The notes under the pieces are model-generated. The model was not told the DNA's origin. It saw nothing but the letters and a program-made list of their open reading frames with translations, and did no database searches. 64,000 bases of DNA from Chryseobacterium sp. VAUSW3 (GTDB taxonomy: Bacteria; Bacteroidota; Bacteroidia; Flavobacteriales; Weeksellaceae). Position 1 is the stretch's first letter. Each line of letters opens with the position of its first letter. The position numbers were made by a program, and so were the translations under genes. Below, one piece after another: positions 2,004 to 26,385 of the stretch. Location of the stretch: contig NZ_NIUY01000001.1 in assembly GCF_002205795.1 (NCBI RefSeq), positions 434,001 through 498,000 of the forward strand, written 5' to 3'.

Positions 2004-2363
2004 ATGACTTCAAAAATCATTTTCGATAACTTAAAAATCTACGCCTATCATGGCGTTCTTCCCGAAGAAACCATTATCGGAACCTATTTCATCCTGAATG
2101 TTGAAATTCACGCTGATGTTTGGAAAGCGACGGAAACTGATGATCTGCACGACACCATCAACTATGCAGAAATCAATGCGTTGATTCATGAGGAAATGAA
2201 AATTCCGTCGCAGCTGATGGAACATGTCTGTGGCAGGATCATGCGGAAAATTAAAGACACCTTCCCGCAGATCACCTTTCTTTCATTAAAAATGACGAAA
2301 ACAAATCCGCCAATGCAGGGGGAAATGGACGGTGTATCGGTGTATTTTGAAAAGAAATTCTAA
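2004..2363 (+). CDS. folB: Dihydroneopterin aldolase FolB
   Basis: FolB cleaves 7,8-dihydroneopterin to 6-hydroxymethyl-dihydropterin and glycolaldehyde in folate synthesis. The 119-residue length is typical of this octameric tunnelling-fold family. Near the N terminus, YAYHGVLPEE (13-22) carries the pterin-anchoring glutamate E22. Near residue 100, LKMTKTNPP contains the conserved lysine that takes part in catalysis. folE, which makes the upstream pterin, is also in this window (58727-59392) but is unlinked. The gene lies between two palindromic elements (1960-1992 and 2400-2440), so it may be expressed with nadA only partly. Confidence 0.95.
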   Translation: MTSKIIFDNLKIYAYHGVLPEETIIGTYFILNVEIHADVWKATETDDLHDTINYAEINALIHEEMKIPSQLMEHVCGRIMRKIKDTFPQITFLSLKMTKTNPPMQGEMDGVSVYFEKKF

Positions 2364-2399
2364 GGGGAATTAAATCAGATTTAAGAAAACATGAATAGC

Positions 2400-2440
2400 A
2401 GCGGGCTTCAGCCCGCTTATCTTTTGTCCCAACGCGTGGG
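2400..2440. repeat. REP-like double hairpin downstream of folB
   Basis: A perfect 7-bp GC-rich stem with loop TTCA occupies 2400-2417. It is followed at 2428-2440 by a second small palindrome centred on ACGCG (CCCA...TGGG). No T-run follows directly. The compact GC-rich double hairpin in an AT-rich intergenic space resembles REP/RAYT-type palindromes of Bacteroidota; no RAYT transposase gene is present here. Confidence 0.55.
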
Positions 2441-2506
2441 CTTTAGATAAAACATAAATCCTAAAAATCTGCGACCTTTATCAGATTGGCGGAAGTTCCT
2501 GCAGCC

Positions 2507-2535
2507 TTGATCCCAAAATATTTTCAGTAAATTTG
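2507..2535 (+). promoter_or_regulatory. Promoter for lnt (Bacteroidota type)
   Basis: TTG at 2507-2509 is followed after 18 bases by TAAATTTG (2528-2535), matching the Bacteroidota TTG/TAnnTTTG consensus. It lies 53 bp before the lnt start codon, giving a leader of about 45 nt. Confidence 0.6.
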
Positions 2536-2588
2536 TGCGGCCACAAAATTTTTCAGGCCCGTACCATCTCAAATAAAGACAACATTCA

Positions 2589-4220
2589 ATGAAATATATT
2601 GTACTTTCATTAATCTCTGCCATGCTCCTCAGCATTTCGTGGCCCACCTACGGAATCCCGTTCTTCATCTTTGTCGCCCTCGTTCCTCTGCTGATGATGG
2701 AACACGACATTTCGAAATTTTCGGGAATCAAAAACAAAGGCAGTCTTGTTTTCGGACTTTCCTATATCTGCTTTCTGATCTGGAACATCGTAACCACAGG
2801 CTGGCTCTACGGGTCGAAGAATCCAGACGGAACCCACTCGCTTTTTGCAGTCGCTGTTCCTGTCATCCTCAATTCGCTGTTCTACTCCTTCATCTTTCAG
2901 CTCTATCACTGGTACAAAAATGCGCAGGGCACCTATTGGGGGCTTACTTTTTTTGTCGCCATCTGGATGTGTTTCGAGAAATTTCACCTCAGCTGGGAAC
3001 TGACCTGGCCGTGGCTGAATTTGGGCAATGTGTTCGCAGATTACCCGAAAATCATTCAGTGGTACGATACACTGGGCGCTACGGGTGGAAGTTTCTGGAT
3101 TTTACTCATCAATGTGTATGCTTTCTATACGCTAAGAATCTGGGAAGCCGGCCGCAAAAGAAAATCTTTAATCATCAATTCCGCGGTTTTAGTCATTGGC
3201 ATCGCCGTTCCGATGCTGATTTCTTTGGTGAAGTACAATAATTTCGATGAAAAACCAATCGAGTCCGTGAATGTACTCATGCTGCAGCCCGAACTTGATC
3301 CTTACACCGAAAAATATTCGAAAGACAGTTTAACCATTCTGAATGATTTACTCACGCTGGCGGAAACAAATTCCAAGGGACAGATCGATTATTACATCGG
3401 TCCGGAAACCTCAATTCCCGGCTTTGGTTCCATTTCTGAAAACGGTTTTGAGCAGAGCATGCTTTTGAATACGGTAAAAGGTTTTCTTGCCCAACATCCA
3501 AAATCGGTGTTTGCGACAGGCATTTCATCTCACCGTTTTTATACCGATGAAAATGAAAAATCTGAAACCGCTTACCAAACTTCACAGGGTATGTATGTTG
3601 ACAGCTATAATTCTGCCGTTCAGATTATTCCGAATCAGAAAGTAGAAGTTTACCACAAAGGGAAACTGGTTCCCGGCGTTGAAATTTTCCCATATATCAA
3701 CGTACTGAAACCGCTTTTAGGCGATGCCATGCTGAATCTTGGCGGCACCACGGCTTCTTTAGGAATTGATAAAGAGAGAATCGCATTCACCAACCCTTAC
3801 AATCCCGGAAAACTGGCTCCAATCATCTGTTATGAAAGTATTTATGGAGAATTCGTAACGGATTATGTAAAAAAAGGTGCCAACTTTCTGGCCATCATGA
3901 CCAACGATTCCTGGTGGGGCGTTACCCAGGGCCACCAGCAGCTCATGGCGTATGCGAGACTGCGCGCGATTGAAACCCGCCGCGAAATCGCCCGTTCCGC
4001 AAACAGTGGAATTTCTGCCCACATTAATGCCAGAGGAGATGTACTGGCTGATACGCTGTACGGCGACAAAACGACGCTCTTCGCCAAAATTAATCTTTAT
4101 GACGGCATGACTTTTTACAGCAGAGCCGGCGACTTGCTGTCAAGAATTTCTGTTTTTGTCTTGGGATTTCTCGTTTTTTACACGCTGATTAAGAAATTCC
4201 AGAACAGGAAGAAAGGTTAA
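2589..4220 (+). CDS. lnt: Apolipoprotein N-acyltransferase
   Basis: Lnt adds the third acyl chain to the N-terminal cysteine of lipoproteins at the periplasmic face of the inner membrane. The 543-residue protein has the family layout: several N-terminal membrane helices (about residues 1-215), a periplasmic carbon-nitrogen hydrolase domain (about 225-495), and one last helix. The catalytic triad is visible: Glu near 275 (IGPETSIPG), Lys near 357 (YHKGKLVPGVE) and Cys near 413 (IICYESIYGEF). It has its own promoter after the folB-side repeats and is convergent with the helicase gene, whose stop is only 7 bp away. Confidence 0.95.
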   Translation: MKYIVLSLISAMLLSISWPTYGIPFFIFVALVPLLMMEHDISKFSGIKNKGSLVFGLSYICFLIWNIVTTGWLYGSKNPDGTHSLFAVAVPVILNSLFYSFIFQLYHWYKNAQGTYWGLTFFVAIWMCFEKFHLSWELTWPWLNLGNVFADYPKIIQWYDTLGATGGSFWILLINVYAFYTLRIWEAGRKRKSLIINSAVLVIGIAVPMLISLVKYNNFDEKPIESVNVLMLQPELDPYTEKYSKDSLTILNDLLTLAETNSKGQIDYYIGPETSIPGFGSISENGFEQSMLLNTVKGFLAQHPKSVFATGISSHRFYTDENEKSETAYQTSQGMYVDSYNSAVQIIPNQKVEVYHKGKLVPGVEIFPYINVLKPLLGDAMLNLGGTTASLGIDKERIAFTNPYNPGKLAPIICYESIYGEFVTDYVKKGANFLAIMTNDSWWGVTQGHQQLMAYARLRAIETRREIARSANSGISAHINARGDVLADTLYGDKTTLFAKINLYDGMTFYSRAGDLLSRISVFVLGFLVFYTLIKKFQNRKKG

Positions 4221-23752: not shown

Positions 23753-23778
23753 TCCCATCTTCGGATGGGATTTTTTTT
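23753..23778 (+). terminator. Intrinsic terminator of ribB
   Basis: A perfect 7-bp stem (23753-23759 with 23764-23770) capped by the stable TTCG tetraloop is followed by T8. Confidence 0.92.
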
Positions 23779-23815: not shown

Positions 23816-23842
23816 TTGTTCATCATTTTTTTATTAAATTTG
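23816..23842 (+). promoter_or_regulatory. Promoter for the radical-SAM cassette
   Basis: TTG (23816-23818) and TAAATTTG (23835-23842) are 16 bases apart, slightly shorter than usual. The -7 element ends 23 bp before the ATG. Confidence 0.5.
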
Positions 23843-23865: not shown

Positions 23866-25122
23866 ATGGATTTCTCACGCATTCAGGAAAAGTTGGAAAT
23901 ACTTGCAGATGCTGCAAAGTACGATGTTTCCTGCTCTTCCAGTGGCGGAAACCGGAAAAACAATGGTGGTTTAGGAAATAGCCATGCTTCCGGTATTTGC
24001 CATTCCTACACCGAAGATGGGAGATGCGTTTCCTTGCTTAAAATTTTGTTGACAAATCACTGTATTTTTGATTGTGCATATTGTGTTTCCCGAAAATCAA
24101 ACGACATTAAACGTGCCGCTTTCACGGTGGAAGAAGTTGTGGATTTAACCATCAATTTTTACCGCAGAAATTATATTGAAGGTCTTTTTTTAAGTTCAGG
24201 AATCTTCAAAGATGCAGACACCACCATGGAGCGCCTGGTTCGTGTTGCCAAGAAATTACGTACCGAGCATCGTTTCAATGGTTATATCCATCTAAAATCA
24301 ATTCCTGGAGCTAGCGAAGAGCTGATGAAGGAGGCAGGCCTATATGCAGACCGCCTGTCCATTAACATCGAAATTCCGACTGAACAAGGGCTCAAACTAT
24401 TGGCTCCCGACAAATCCCACGCAGAAATGATAAAGCCGATGGATTTTGTTAAAAATGAATTGATTTTGTATAAAGACGAAAGAAAAATATTTAAAAAAAT
24501 TCCGAAATTCGCACCTGCCGGGCAATCTACACAGATGATCGTGGGAGCCACCAACGAAACCGATTTAAAAATCATAAAGGTAGCCAATCATTTTTACCAA
24601 AACTTTAATCTAAAACGCGTTTATTATTCAGGCTATGTACCGGTTTTGGAAGACAGCCGCCTTCCTTCTATTCATTCGCAGGTTCCAATTCTCCGGGAAA
24701 ACCGCTTATACCAAGCGGATTGGCTGATGCGTTTCTATGGATTTGGTGCCGATGAAATTTTAGATAAAAATAATCCGTTTCTTGATCTGGAAGTGGATCC
24801 AAAACTAGCATGGGCGCTAAGAAATCGCGAGAATTTCCCTGTGAACATCAACACCGCGCCGAAAGAGATGATTTTGCGCGTGCCCGGAATTGGAACAAAA
24901 TCGACCGGTAAAATTTTGATGGCCAGAAAATTCCAGAAACTTACTTTGGAACATCTCCAAAAAATGGGGGTTGCTGTAAACAGAGCCAAATATTTTGTGG
25001 AGGTTGAAAGCGAAAATATTTTCAACCGCTTGATTGATGAGCAAAATTTGAGAAAAATTTTACTTTCCGGTATGAAGTCCAAATTTCAAAATCCATTTTC
25101 TCAACAGCTTAGTTTATTTTAA
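23866..25122 (+). CDS. Radical SAM protein, putative DNA modification/repair type (TIGR03916-like)
   Basis: The 418-residue protein has a radical-SAM cluster motif CIFDCAYC (C66, C70, C73) preceded by the conserved Cys-rich N terminus DVSCSSSGG and GICHSYTEDGRCVSLLK, which may bind a second cluster or metal. LFLSSGIFKDAD (about 108) and YIHLKSIPGAS (about 142) follow. Near residue 339, LRVPGIGTKSTGKILMARKF is a helix-hairpin-helix motif typical of DNA-binding proteins. These features fit the TIGR03916 family, described as putative DNA modification/repair radical SAM proteins. The DUF4130-type partner follows after 3 bp, so the two form a cassette. The substrate is unknown. Confidence 0.88.
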   Translation: MDFSRIQEKLEILADAAKYDVSCSSSGGNRKNNGGLGNSHASGICHSYTEDGRCVSLLKILLTNHCIFDCAYCVSRKSNDIKRAAFTVEEVVDLTINFYRRNYIEGLFLSSGIFKDADTTMERLVRVAKKLRTEHRFNGYIHLKSIPGASEELMKEAGLYADRLSINIEIPTEQGLKLLAPDKSHAEMIKPMDFVKNELILYKDERKIFKKIPKFAPAGQSTQMIVGATNETDLKIIKVANHFYQNFNLKRVYYSGYVPVLEDSRLPSIHSQVPILRENRLYQADWLMRFYGFGADEILDKNNPFLDLEVDPKLAWALRNRENFPVNINTAPKEMILRVPGIGTKSTGKILMARKFQKLTLEHLQKMGVAVNRAKYFVEVESENIFNRLIDEQNLRKILLSGMKSKFQNPFSQQLSLF

Positions 25123-25125
25123 AAT

Positions 25126-25890
25126 ATGAACATCCTGCTTTATGATGGAAGTTTTGAAGGTTTGCTGACGGCTATTTTCGAAATTTTCGAATATAAATTT
25201 AAGGACGCAGAAATCATCAGTTCATCAAACTATCAACAGGAAAATTTCTTCGCTGAAGTGCAAGAAGTGATTGCCCAAAACGATAAAGCGGACCGCGTTC
25301 TGCAAAAATTGGAGAAAAATTTAGGCAAGGAGGGCATCAAAAATTTACTATGGGTTTACCTTTCCGAAAGAAAAGACCGTGAAAGACTGATTCTAAGTGC
25401 GGTGAAACACTCACTGAAATATCCTAATGAAAATGTGCTGCAGGATTATGGAAACCCGGATATTTTAGAAATTTCTAAAATATGTAAAAGTGTGGGCAGG
25501 GAAAAACACCGGATGACAGCCTTTGTCCGTTTTGAGAAGTTAAAGGATGATGTTTATTTTTCGAAAGTAGAGCCAGATTTTAATGTATTGCCTTTGGTTT
25601 TAAATCATTTTAAAAACCGATATCAAGATCAGAAATGGATGATTTTTGATTTGAAACGAAATTACGGAATCTTCTATGACATGGTAAACGCAGATTTTTT
25701 TTATCCGGAAGAAGATCAAATTTTAATGATGAAAAATTCGCAAAATCTCCACCATGACGAAGAAAAGAAATACCAAAAATTATGGCAACGCTATTTTTTC
25801 AAAACCAATATTGTGGAAAGAAAAAACATAAAACTCCACGTTCAGTGGTTGCCCAAACGCTACTGGAAGTATTTAACTGAAAAGTTCTAA
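25126..25890 (+). CDS. DUF4130/TIGR03915-type partner of the radical SAM protein
   Basis: The 254-residue protein begins ILLYDGSFEGLLTAIFEIF, the family start, and has the middle signature ICKSVGREKHRMTAFVRFEKL (about residues 120-140) and MIFDLKRNYGIFYD (about 173). It ends with IVERKNIKLHVQWLPKRYW, the C-terminal signature. In other genomes this family is fused to a uracil-DNA glycosylase-like domain or stands next to the TIGR03916 radical SAM protein; here it has no glycosylase domain. Its start follows the partner stop by 3 bp, so the two are certainly cotranscribed. The reaction is unknown, with a role in nucleic-acid repair or modification inferred. Confidence 0.85.
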   Translation: MNILLYDGSFEGLLTAIFEIFEYKFKDAEIISSSNYQQENFFAEVQEVIAQNDKADRVLQKLEKNLGKEGIKNLLWVYLSERKDRERLILSAVKHSLKYPNENVLQDYGNPDILEISKICKSVGREKHRMTAFVRFEKLKDDVYFSKVEPDFNVLPLVLNHFKNRYQDQKWMIFDLKRNYGIFYDMVNADFFYPEEDQILMMKNSQNLHHDEEKKYQKLWQRYFFKTNIVERKNIKLHVQWLPKRYWKYLTEKF

Positions 25891-26020
25891 TGCTGAGAAT
25901 TTACATCGCAATGGTAGCGCGTGCTAAGTTTGAGAAGGGTTTCTATTTCAAATTATTGACCATTTCCAACAGCGCCCTTTTACGAAAATTTAATTATTAT
26001 CCATCAACATTTCAATTGGC

Positions 26021-26049
26021 AAAAAAAATCCCAACTGTGAAGTTGGGAT
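26021..26049 (-). terminator. Intrinsic terminator of the rpoBC-DUF3467 unit
   Basis: A perfect 9-bp stem (26028-26036 with 26041-26049) is followed on the minus strand by T8. It lies 24 bp past the DUF3467 stop. Confidence 0.93.
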
Positions 26050-26073
26050 CTGTATTTTACAAAACGCTTTGGC

Positions 26074-26385
26074 TTATGCCTGAACGTTATTTTGACCTAC
26101 TACGAAAGGCTCAACCTCTTTAATTTCGCCAAATTGCTGTTCATAGTTCGCAACATTTTGTTGTAATGCATTCAATACTCTTTTTGCGTGCAAAGGTGCC
26201 AAGATTACTCTTGAACGAACGTTAGCTTGTTGCACACCCGGCATCAATTGGATAAAATCTACTACGAATTCTGATGGTGAGTGGTTTACTAACGCAAGGT
26301 TACAGTAAACACCAGCAGCGATCATTTCGTTAAGGTTGATGTTGATGTTGTTTGGATCGTTGTTTTGGTTTTGGTTGTTGTCCAT
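26074..26385 (-). CDS. DUF3467 domain protein
   Basis: The 103-residue cytoplasmic protein has an Asn/Gln-rich start and the DUF3467 core: AGVYCNLALVNHSPSEFVVDF, then VRSRVILAPLHAKRVLNAL and a helical end. The family is small, found mostly in bacteria with a Bacteroidota bias, and has no known function. Its place directly after rpoC, inside the same terminator-bounded unit, suggests a role linked to transcription, but that is inference. A 16-bp inverted repeat (26431-26470) separates it from rpoC. Confidence 0.9.
   Translation of the reverse strand: MDNNQNQNNDPNNININLNEMIAAGVYCNLALVNHSPSEFVVDFIQLMPGVQQANVRSRVILAPLHAKRVLNALQQNVANYEQQFGEIKEVEPFVVGQNNVQA

Follow-up and report, generated by a model that had tools for sequence, protein, structure and literature searches.

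A radical SAM-DUF4130 gene pair with a putative sliding clamp-binding tail and a proposed role in DNA repair

The gene pair and its proteins

The pair lies in a 64-kb window, by which we mean the whole stretch of DNA analysed. It covers positions 434001-498000 on contig 1 of a 2.63-Mb genome that, judged by its named relatives in the rSAM tree described below, belongs to a Bacteroidota. Two adjacent genes are read from its forward strand: one for a 418-aa radical SAM protein (rSAM; 23866..25122, stop TAA at 25120-25122) and, after a gap of 3 bp (AAT), one for a 254-aa DUF4130 partner without a UdgX domain (25126..25890, ATG at 25126). An earlier sequence-only reading had given the same coordinates, frames and spacing and had named the families TIGR03916 and TIGR03915; Pfam and NCBIfam searches bear this out. 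TIGR03916 covers the full rSAM sequence at 691.1 bits (cut-off 343.5; model positions 1-415), and the partner matches TIGR03915 (264.2 bits, cut-off 112.25) and PF13566, the DUF4130 family (168.3 bits, cut-off 27). With the gene order, close spacing and full-length matches of the TIGR03916/TIGR03915 pair, the window pair is an ordinary, complete, unfused member of this widespread, known family pair. Nothing decisive sets it apart; it is unfused, as in the phylum samples described below, and no LexA box was seen.

Terminator-like stems bound the pair on both sides, as had been claimed. Upstream, a stem of the preceding gene matches the terminator consensus (23753..23770, forward strand); downstream, a terminator scan placed a two-way stem 3' of the pair (26026..26051, both strands). 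Between the upstream stem and the rSAM start codon, TAAATTTG (23835..23842, forward strand) is a candidate Bacteroidota -7 promoter element that fits the consensus TAnnTTTG. The same interval held no site in a sigma-70 scan and no match to the stricter pattern TTTG-N16-22-TAnnTTTG. A 77-aa open reading frame (25890-26123), whose ATG overlaps the partner's stop codon and which runs into an opposite-strand gene (26074-26385), is probably not a gene.

Residues 61-192 of the rSAM form a Radical_SAM domain (PF04055, 40.4 bits, cut-off 29.5) containing the cluster motif C66xxxC70xxC73 (24061..24084, forward strand), which was read correctly before and is evident in the sequence, the Pfam match and a 52-row alignment chosen from 82 rows. 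The helix-hairpin-helix (HhH) previously placed near residue 339 spans residues 325-355 (24838..24930, forward strand); its Pfam score is below the cut-off (20.6 bits against 27), and a family profile of the 52 rows matches HhH domains, among them ComEA and RuvA chains, with weak scores. The profile's other matches, likewise weak, fall on the core of HydE, ThiH and HydG type enzymes, and the nearest relatives of the profile and its 52 members are of the ThiH, HydE, HydG and CofH types. Single-sequence searching found no solved relative, and PHROGs returned one weak generic radical SAM match (E 0.0011).

Ahead of the cluster motif lies the extra Cys-rich N terminus that the sequence-only reading had noticed, consisting of C23, C45 and C54, together with a histidine, H46, that it had overlooked (23932..24027, forward strand). 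These four residues are invariant in 52/52 aligned rows, are likewise kept in seven proteobacterial rows, and by eye persist in L222-L230, a divergent branch in Bacillota where C23 lies one residue off. Together they probably form a second Fe-S or metal site. Two divergent rSAM proteins depart from this pattern: L217, on a Gemmatirosa plasmid (4001-4999; 302.7 bits, under the TIGR03916 cut-off), lacks all three N-terminal cysteines, and L231 (genome G195, 2286-3419) lacks C45 and H46 and keeps two cysteines. No TIGR03915 partner occurs in the 1.1-Mb record of L217 or in genome G195, and both proteins retain QL-type tails (QLSLW and QLSFI). Because these partnerless proteins are without C45-H46, the two cases suggest that this site and the DUF4130 partner belong together.

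The cysteine inventory bears on whether the rSAM is a direct-reversal enzyme of the spore photoproduct lyase (SplB) kind. An SPL-type mechanism needs a further Cys as hydrogen donor; the rSAM, by eye, has six cysteines in total (C23, C45, C54 and C66/C70/C73), all within the N-terminal set and CxxxCxxC, leaving none spare. SplB is, like the window rSAM as proposed here, a radical SAM protein tied to the SOS response and DNA repair. In their available portions, PMC3765255 calls the associated rSAM SplB-like and PMC8565304 links both proteins to SOS, although for the latter SplB (COG1533) is a gene of its own. The matches of the family profile and of the 52 sequences in it include no SPL family or structure, and the window rSAM also differs in its extra N-terminal Cys/His set, its HhH and its partner. 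We regard an SplB-like reaction as very improbable.

The WLPKRYW signature reported for the partner is present at residues 241-247, seven residues before its end (25846..25866, forward strand), and is conserved in the 52-row alignment. An AlphaFold model of the partner (mean pLDDT 94.9) has RecJ, Cdc45, NrnA-type and related chains as structural neighbours among the matches listed. Judged by this model, DUF4130 looks DHH/DHHA1-like in structure, a likeness that its sequence does not support. Its profile was no more similar to NrnA or RecJ than a control, and single-sequence structure searches gave chance-level matches only. By eye, the partner stretch NVLPLVLNHFKNR recalls the NrnA DHHA1 loop; we rejected this candidate, as its hhalign score of 9.4 was reached by 86/150 column shuffles. 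Because structural alignments scarcely pass residue 212, the fold reading leaves out the last 40 residues. PHROGs gave zero matches for the partner, and PADLOC none for the pair. The accessible part of PMC3765255 describes DUF4130 as a predicted mutagenesis-related enzyme linked to an SplB-like rSAM and UDGs.

These structural neighbours raise the option that DUF4130 is itself the catalyst, a DHH/DHHA1-type phosphoesterase or exonuclease whose substrate the rSAM prepares. The profile comparison with NrnA and RecJ tells against it, as do the positions of the first DHH motif, which read D7, S/T9 and D/E11 and not the full Asp set, and a length of 254 residues that is too short for large DHH-domain stretches. 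We find a catalytic DUF4130 of this type scarcely credible.

A clamp-type tail on the radical SAM protein

The rSAM ends in ...FSQQLSLF, and its last five residues (QLSLF, 414-418; 25105..25119, forward strand) are a predicted sliding clamp-binding motif. This tag is new here, having been overlooked in the sequence-only reading. The available text of PMC12309361 and PMC3716654 gives QL[S/D]LF, or QxxLF in its broader form, as the bacterial clamp-binding consensus, and QLSLF as the C terminus of B. subtilis PolC. The window rSAM thus ends in the same pentapeptide as this clamp client (PMC12309361), but it is no polymerase and its clamp binding is predicted only.

We counted tails at 81 loci: L149 plus the best 80 among 591 that were confirmed against a first sequence of Clostridia type, so that these 80 lean to Bacillota; L150 was left out as incomplete. 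The strict motif Q[LIM][SD]LF closes 45/81 tails, against a shuffle mean of 0.024 (max 1 in 500). A loose pattern, widened after an alignment had been inspected, fits 74/81 (tail shuffles mean 0.98, max 5 in 200 rounds); neither count is made up of independent cases, because there are close relatives among the loci. The seven failing tails include some six-residue forms, such as QLSLPF in L138, and L135, which has no such motif. Controls were nearly empty: the rSAM bodies held 0 strict and 1 loose match, 77 partners 0 and 1, and 240 neighbouring proteins 0 and 4. A second set, with 36 rows from Bacteroidota, plasmids and phages, contained 18 loose and 7 strict matches, with QLVLPGLF-like (Chlorobiaceae), QLSLGF, QLILPF, QLTLW and QLALL among its other tails; by eye, all 36 begin QL or QM and have L or I at position 4. 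Seven further rSAM tails from loci with a fused partner read QLSLF (2), QLALF, QLSLL (2), QLALI and QLSLI. Q414 is invariant in 52/52 aligned rows and F418 is kept in 47/52. Two Y-family polymerases of the same genome carry QLKIPF and QMNLF.

A tail motif this short can by itself occur without clamp binding. With its conserved, accessible terminal motif of the QL[S/D]LF type, the rSAM is, as far as its sequence indicates, a putative sliding clamp client. We know of no radical SAM enzyme demonstrated to work from the clamp. A literature search pairing the two terms returned, in the portions of papers available, none on a clamp-bound radical SAM enzyme.

The tail also weighs on whether the substrate is DNA. 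The pair might instead act on RNA, the nucleotide pool or a protein, with the tail, HhH and partner serving other ends: the usual substrates of radical SAM enzymes are small molecules, peptides or RNA, and the nearest relatives of this rSAM are cofactor-synthesis enzymes. The earlier statement that no reaction has been proven for the pair agrees with our literature search, which found neither a reaction nor a substrate in print. A tail motif far above chance in several phyla, the HhH, the UdgX fusion and the LexA boxes described below all argue for DNA, and we consider a different substrate quite improbable.

Pairing, UdgX fusion and SOS boxes across genomes

The sequence-only reading held that the two families always occur together. 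This is largely so: both are present in 41/45 Bacteroidota and 47/50 Bacillota genomes that have either gene, and lone genes of each kind exist. A sample of 148 Bacteroidota genomes (43 matching TIGR03915, 41 over the TIGR03916 cut-off) had both genes in 41, rSAM only in 2, partner only in 2 and neither in 103. A sample of 199 Bacillota genomes, the phylum of G148 (genome of the Heliobacterium locus L079), had both in 47, rSAM only in 3 and partner only in 0; here G240 counts as 'both' though both genes look broken, and 12/47 partners are under the TIGR03915 cut-off. Weak TIGR03916 rows are excluded from these counts (36 genomes in the first sample, E 1e-6 to 1e-3; 33 in the second). The rSAM-only genomes are G024 and G121, whose rSAM genes each lie at a contig end, and G191 (contig end), G195 and G291 (in pieces). 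In the partner-only genomes, G033 and G134, H161 and R165 are changed and the ends lack RYW (by eye). The lone altered gene of G033 (L153 4385-6640) has, by eye, a DUF72-like ORF ~0.5 kb away; a clamp-type motif was once reported for the DUF72 family too.

At 77 of the best 80 loci the partner lay in the fetched stretch, with short frames only at L071 and L089; at L079, L095 and L102 it is elsewhere in the same genome. The L102 rSAM copy may itself be unpaired, because that genome's partner adjoins a second rSAM copy, L221. Spacing varies: the genes are 1.2-1.7 kb apart in Hymenobacter, and the divergent branch L222-L230 has divergent, sub-cut-off partners adjacent. In a Chlorobiaceae-like genome (G052, L017 180-1486) the rSAM gene is broken up into two frames that overlap. 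We found neither a lack of co-occurrence nor a known non-nucleic-acid pathway that would claim the pair.

It had further been noted that the partner is often fused to a uracil-DNA glycosylase-like domain and that this domain is missing here. Pfam and NCBIfam searches found no glycosylase family in either protein, and TIGR03914 (UdgX) matched neither the partner nor anything in its own genome; the domain is indeed absent. We rejected its absence as a special trait: 0/148 and 0/199 genomes pass the TIGR03914 cut-off, so that the two-gene form is the rule, and fused rows form a single clade. Weaker TIGR03914 rows (E<=0.001, at most 174.6 bits) occur in 108/148 and 139/199 genomes, including genomes without the pair, and from their scores we read them as probable ordinary family-4 UDGs. 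The fusion itself is real at 8/8 scanned loci, all from Alpha- and Betaproteobacterial plasmid records and all over the TIGR03915 and TIGR03914 cut-offs, and it marks one proteobacterial clade. The species Caulobacter vibrioides matches all three family models (TIGR03916, TIGR03915 and TIGR03914) and is presumably of the fused type. In a tree of 119 rSAM rows, the 8 fused rows lie on one side of one branch (SH-aLRT 100). One late UdgX fusion is the simplest reading, short of proof because the midpoint root serves for drawing only and the fused rows were taken from plasmids only. Upstream of these DUF4130-UdgX proteins stands an rSAM with the same six cysteines, the histidine and a QL-type tail; the window pair differs in having a partner without UdgX and in falling outside the fused clade.

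The separate glycosylase suggested before is present solely in the shape of three UDG-superfamily genes of other types, none a UdgX. One encodes Ung (TIGR00628, 257.7 bits) and another a DNA-deoxyinosine glycosylase (TIGR04274, 181.3 bits); the product of the third, a 229-aa protein (L003 1366-2055), contains GINPSRHGAG, is encoded between two metabolic ORFs and has zero NCBIfam matches. The third is presumably SMUG2-like.

We scanned the 220 bp upstream of each rSAM gene for LexA boxes. The core consensus of the Gram-positive box, GAACN4GTTC, is exact in 32/81 regions and one mismatch away in 22 more, in a set that includes one duplicate and, because of its close relatives, is not independent. 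Random windows of the same loci gave a mean of 0.73 (max 4 in 200 rounds), shuffled upstream regions 0.15 (max 2 in 300) and eleven same-letter decoy palindromes 0 or 1. LexA boxes are also exact at 9/19 further Bacillota loci. CTGTN8ACAG is exact in both Betaproteobacteria examined (L215 and L216), and six Alphaproteobacteria have no exact CTGTN8ACAG or GTTCN7GTTC upstream of the rSAM. CTAAN5TTAG, a Bacteroidetes motif in the available text of PMC8565304, is exact in 6/22 Bacteroidota regions (three of them Hymenobacteraceae; Chlorobiaceae and others were left out), against 0.16 in shuffles (max 3 in 300) and 0-1 for decoys; with up to one mismatch the excess is weak (9/22, shuffle mean 3.2, max 9). 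The window copy has no exact LexA box: the closest matches to four boxes carry 2 mismatches, and that to the short GGAN5TCC carries 1. L231 has none. Because boxes are exact in many relatives and none is exact at the window copy, predicted SOS control is a property of those relatives and is not assigned to this copy.

We take the TIGR03916 protein to be COG4277 and the pair to be the COG4277 with COG1573 of the SOS literature. The SOS link of the operon, missed in the sequence-only reading, is partly published already: in their accessible portions, PMC8565304 places a two-gene COG1573-COG4277 operon in two Bacteroidetes SOS networks and PMC3828012 places the operon (CAC3343-CAC3344 in Clostridium acetobutylicum ATCC 824) in an SOS network. 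Elsewhere, again as far as the available text goes, Acinetobacter Tol 5 is reported to upregulate the rSAM gene at 8% humidity (PMC13130816), a LexA-regulated radical SAM protein is mentioned with its family unnamed (PMC7739468, PMC9380542), and the annotation is merely listed (PMC9611098, PMC9848294).

Gene neighbourhoods gave no further clue. Among the families listed (best 25 of 152 and best 25 of 178), drawn from 240 ORF translations (122 downstream and 118 upstream, hand-picked from 135 and 142), no family occurs in >3 members. Chaperonin-like neighbours (Cpn60 Pfam) reach 3 members: in L097, L098 and L106 (Bacilli/Erysipelotrichaceae) a gene encoding 502-521 aa either begins where the partner gene ends or overlaps that end. 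By eye, LigD-like ORFs lie near the pair in L098 and L106, and in Heliobacterium (L079 7622-9022) a photolyase-like ORF follows the rSAM, with DUF4130 elsewhere in the genome.

We also considered and set aside a phage system. Two 'Acinetobacter phage' contigs are no evidence for one, because glyQS and other bacterial genes surround the pair, and the '240-kb phage' record looks like a bacterial contig. The other phage matches comprise an annotated Bacteroides phage and eight or nine gut contigs that are short or lack annotation, and a search of viral contigs gave two loci. In the tree, the Acinetobacter copies L062 and L065 (plasmid and '240-kb phage' records) nest inside Bacteroidota rSAM rows, which suggests transfer between phyla.

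A proposed role at the replication fork

We propose, with a probability of roughly 0.6, that the two proteins form a radical enzyme pair that responds to DNA damage, is tethered to the clamp and works on DNA at the replication fork or behind it. The rSAM would be docked on the DnaN clamp by the QLSLF tag at its C terminus and would hold DNA with its HhH. Its CxxxCxxC [4Fe-4S] cluster would make a 5'-deoxyadenosyl radical that acts on a damaged or unwanted nucleotide, presumably in DNA, with the C23/C45/H46/C54 set probably carrying its second site. DUF4130, the near-obligate partner, would most likely recognise or present the nucleotide or DNA end. The UdgX uracil/abasic-site trap, added to the partner in one proteobacterial branch, would stand outside the core machine; its fusion suggests the formation of uracil or abasic sites during the reaction or close to it.

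The link to DNA repair suspected in the sequence-only reading gains from the UdgX fusion at 8/8 loci, the LexA boxes in relatives and the SOS papers, in the parts available (PMC8565304, PMC3828012); the tail motif, the HhH and the pairing also count for it. Counting against it are the 7/81 failing tails, the fit of no more than 18/36 rows of the second set to the loose pattern, the missing LexA box at the window copy, the six Alphaproteobacteria and the many Bacteroidota rows (most of them) without a box, and the lack of conserved neighbours. The clamp tag and HhH would serve equally well for a DNA-modifying enzyme, one that the clamp puts on new DNA and that installs or erases a base modification there, and the NCBI family name leaves both options open. 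Damage is favoured, however, by the UdgX fusion and by the LexA boxes of many relatives, and no methylase- or restriction-like family recurs among the best 25 neighbour families listed. We judge DNA modification unlikely.

Building on the damage-response reading, one could imagine a new repair route in which an SOS-type, clamp-tethered radical enzyme is fed nucleotides or ends at stalled forks by a shrunken and repurposed RecJ/Cdc45-like (DHH/DHHA1) partner, with C45-H46 found only where that partner exists; we offer this tentatively and think it doubtful. New here are the clamp tag, the measured extent to which relatives have LexA boxes, the finding that fused rows make up one clade, the invariant histidine and a structural lead for DUF4130. 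Both genes occur in about a quarter of the sampled genomes (41/148 Bacteroidota and 47/199 Bacillota). For this family, the clamp tag and LexA control in relatives narrow the question to the task of a radical enzyme on DNA at the fork, and the tag provides a testable handle on the repair role.
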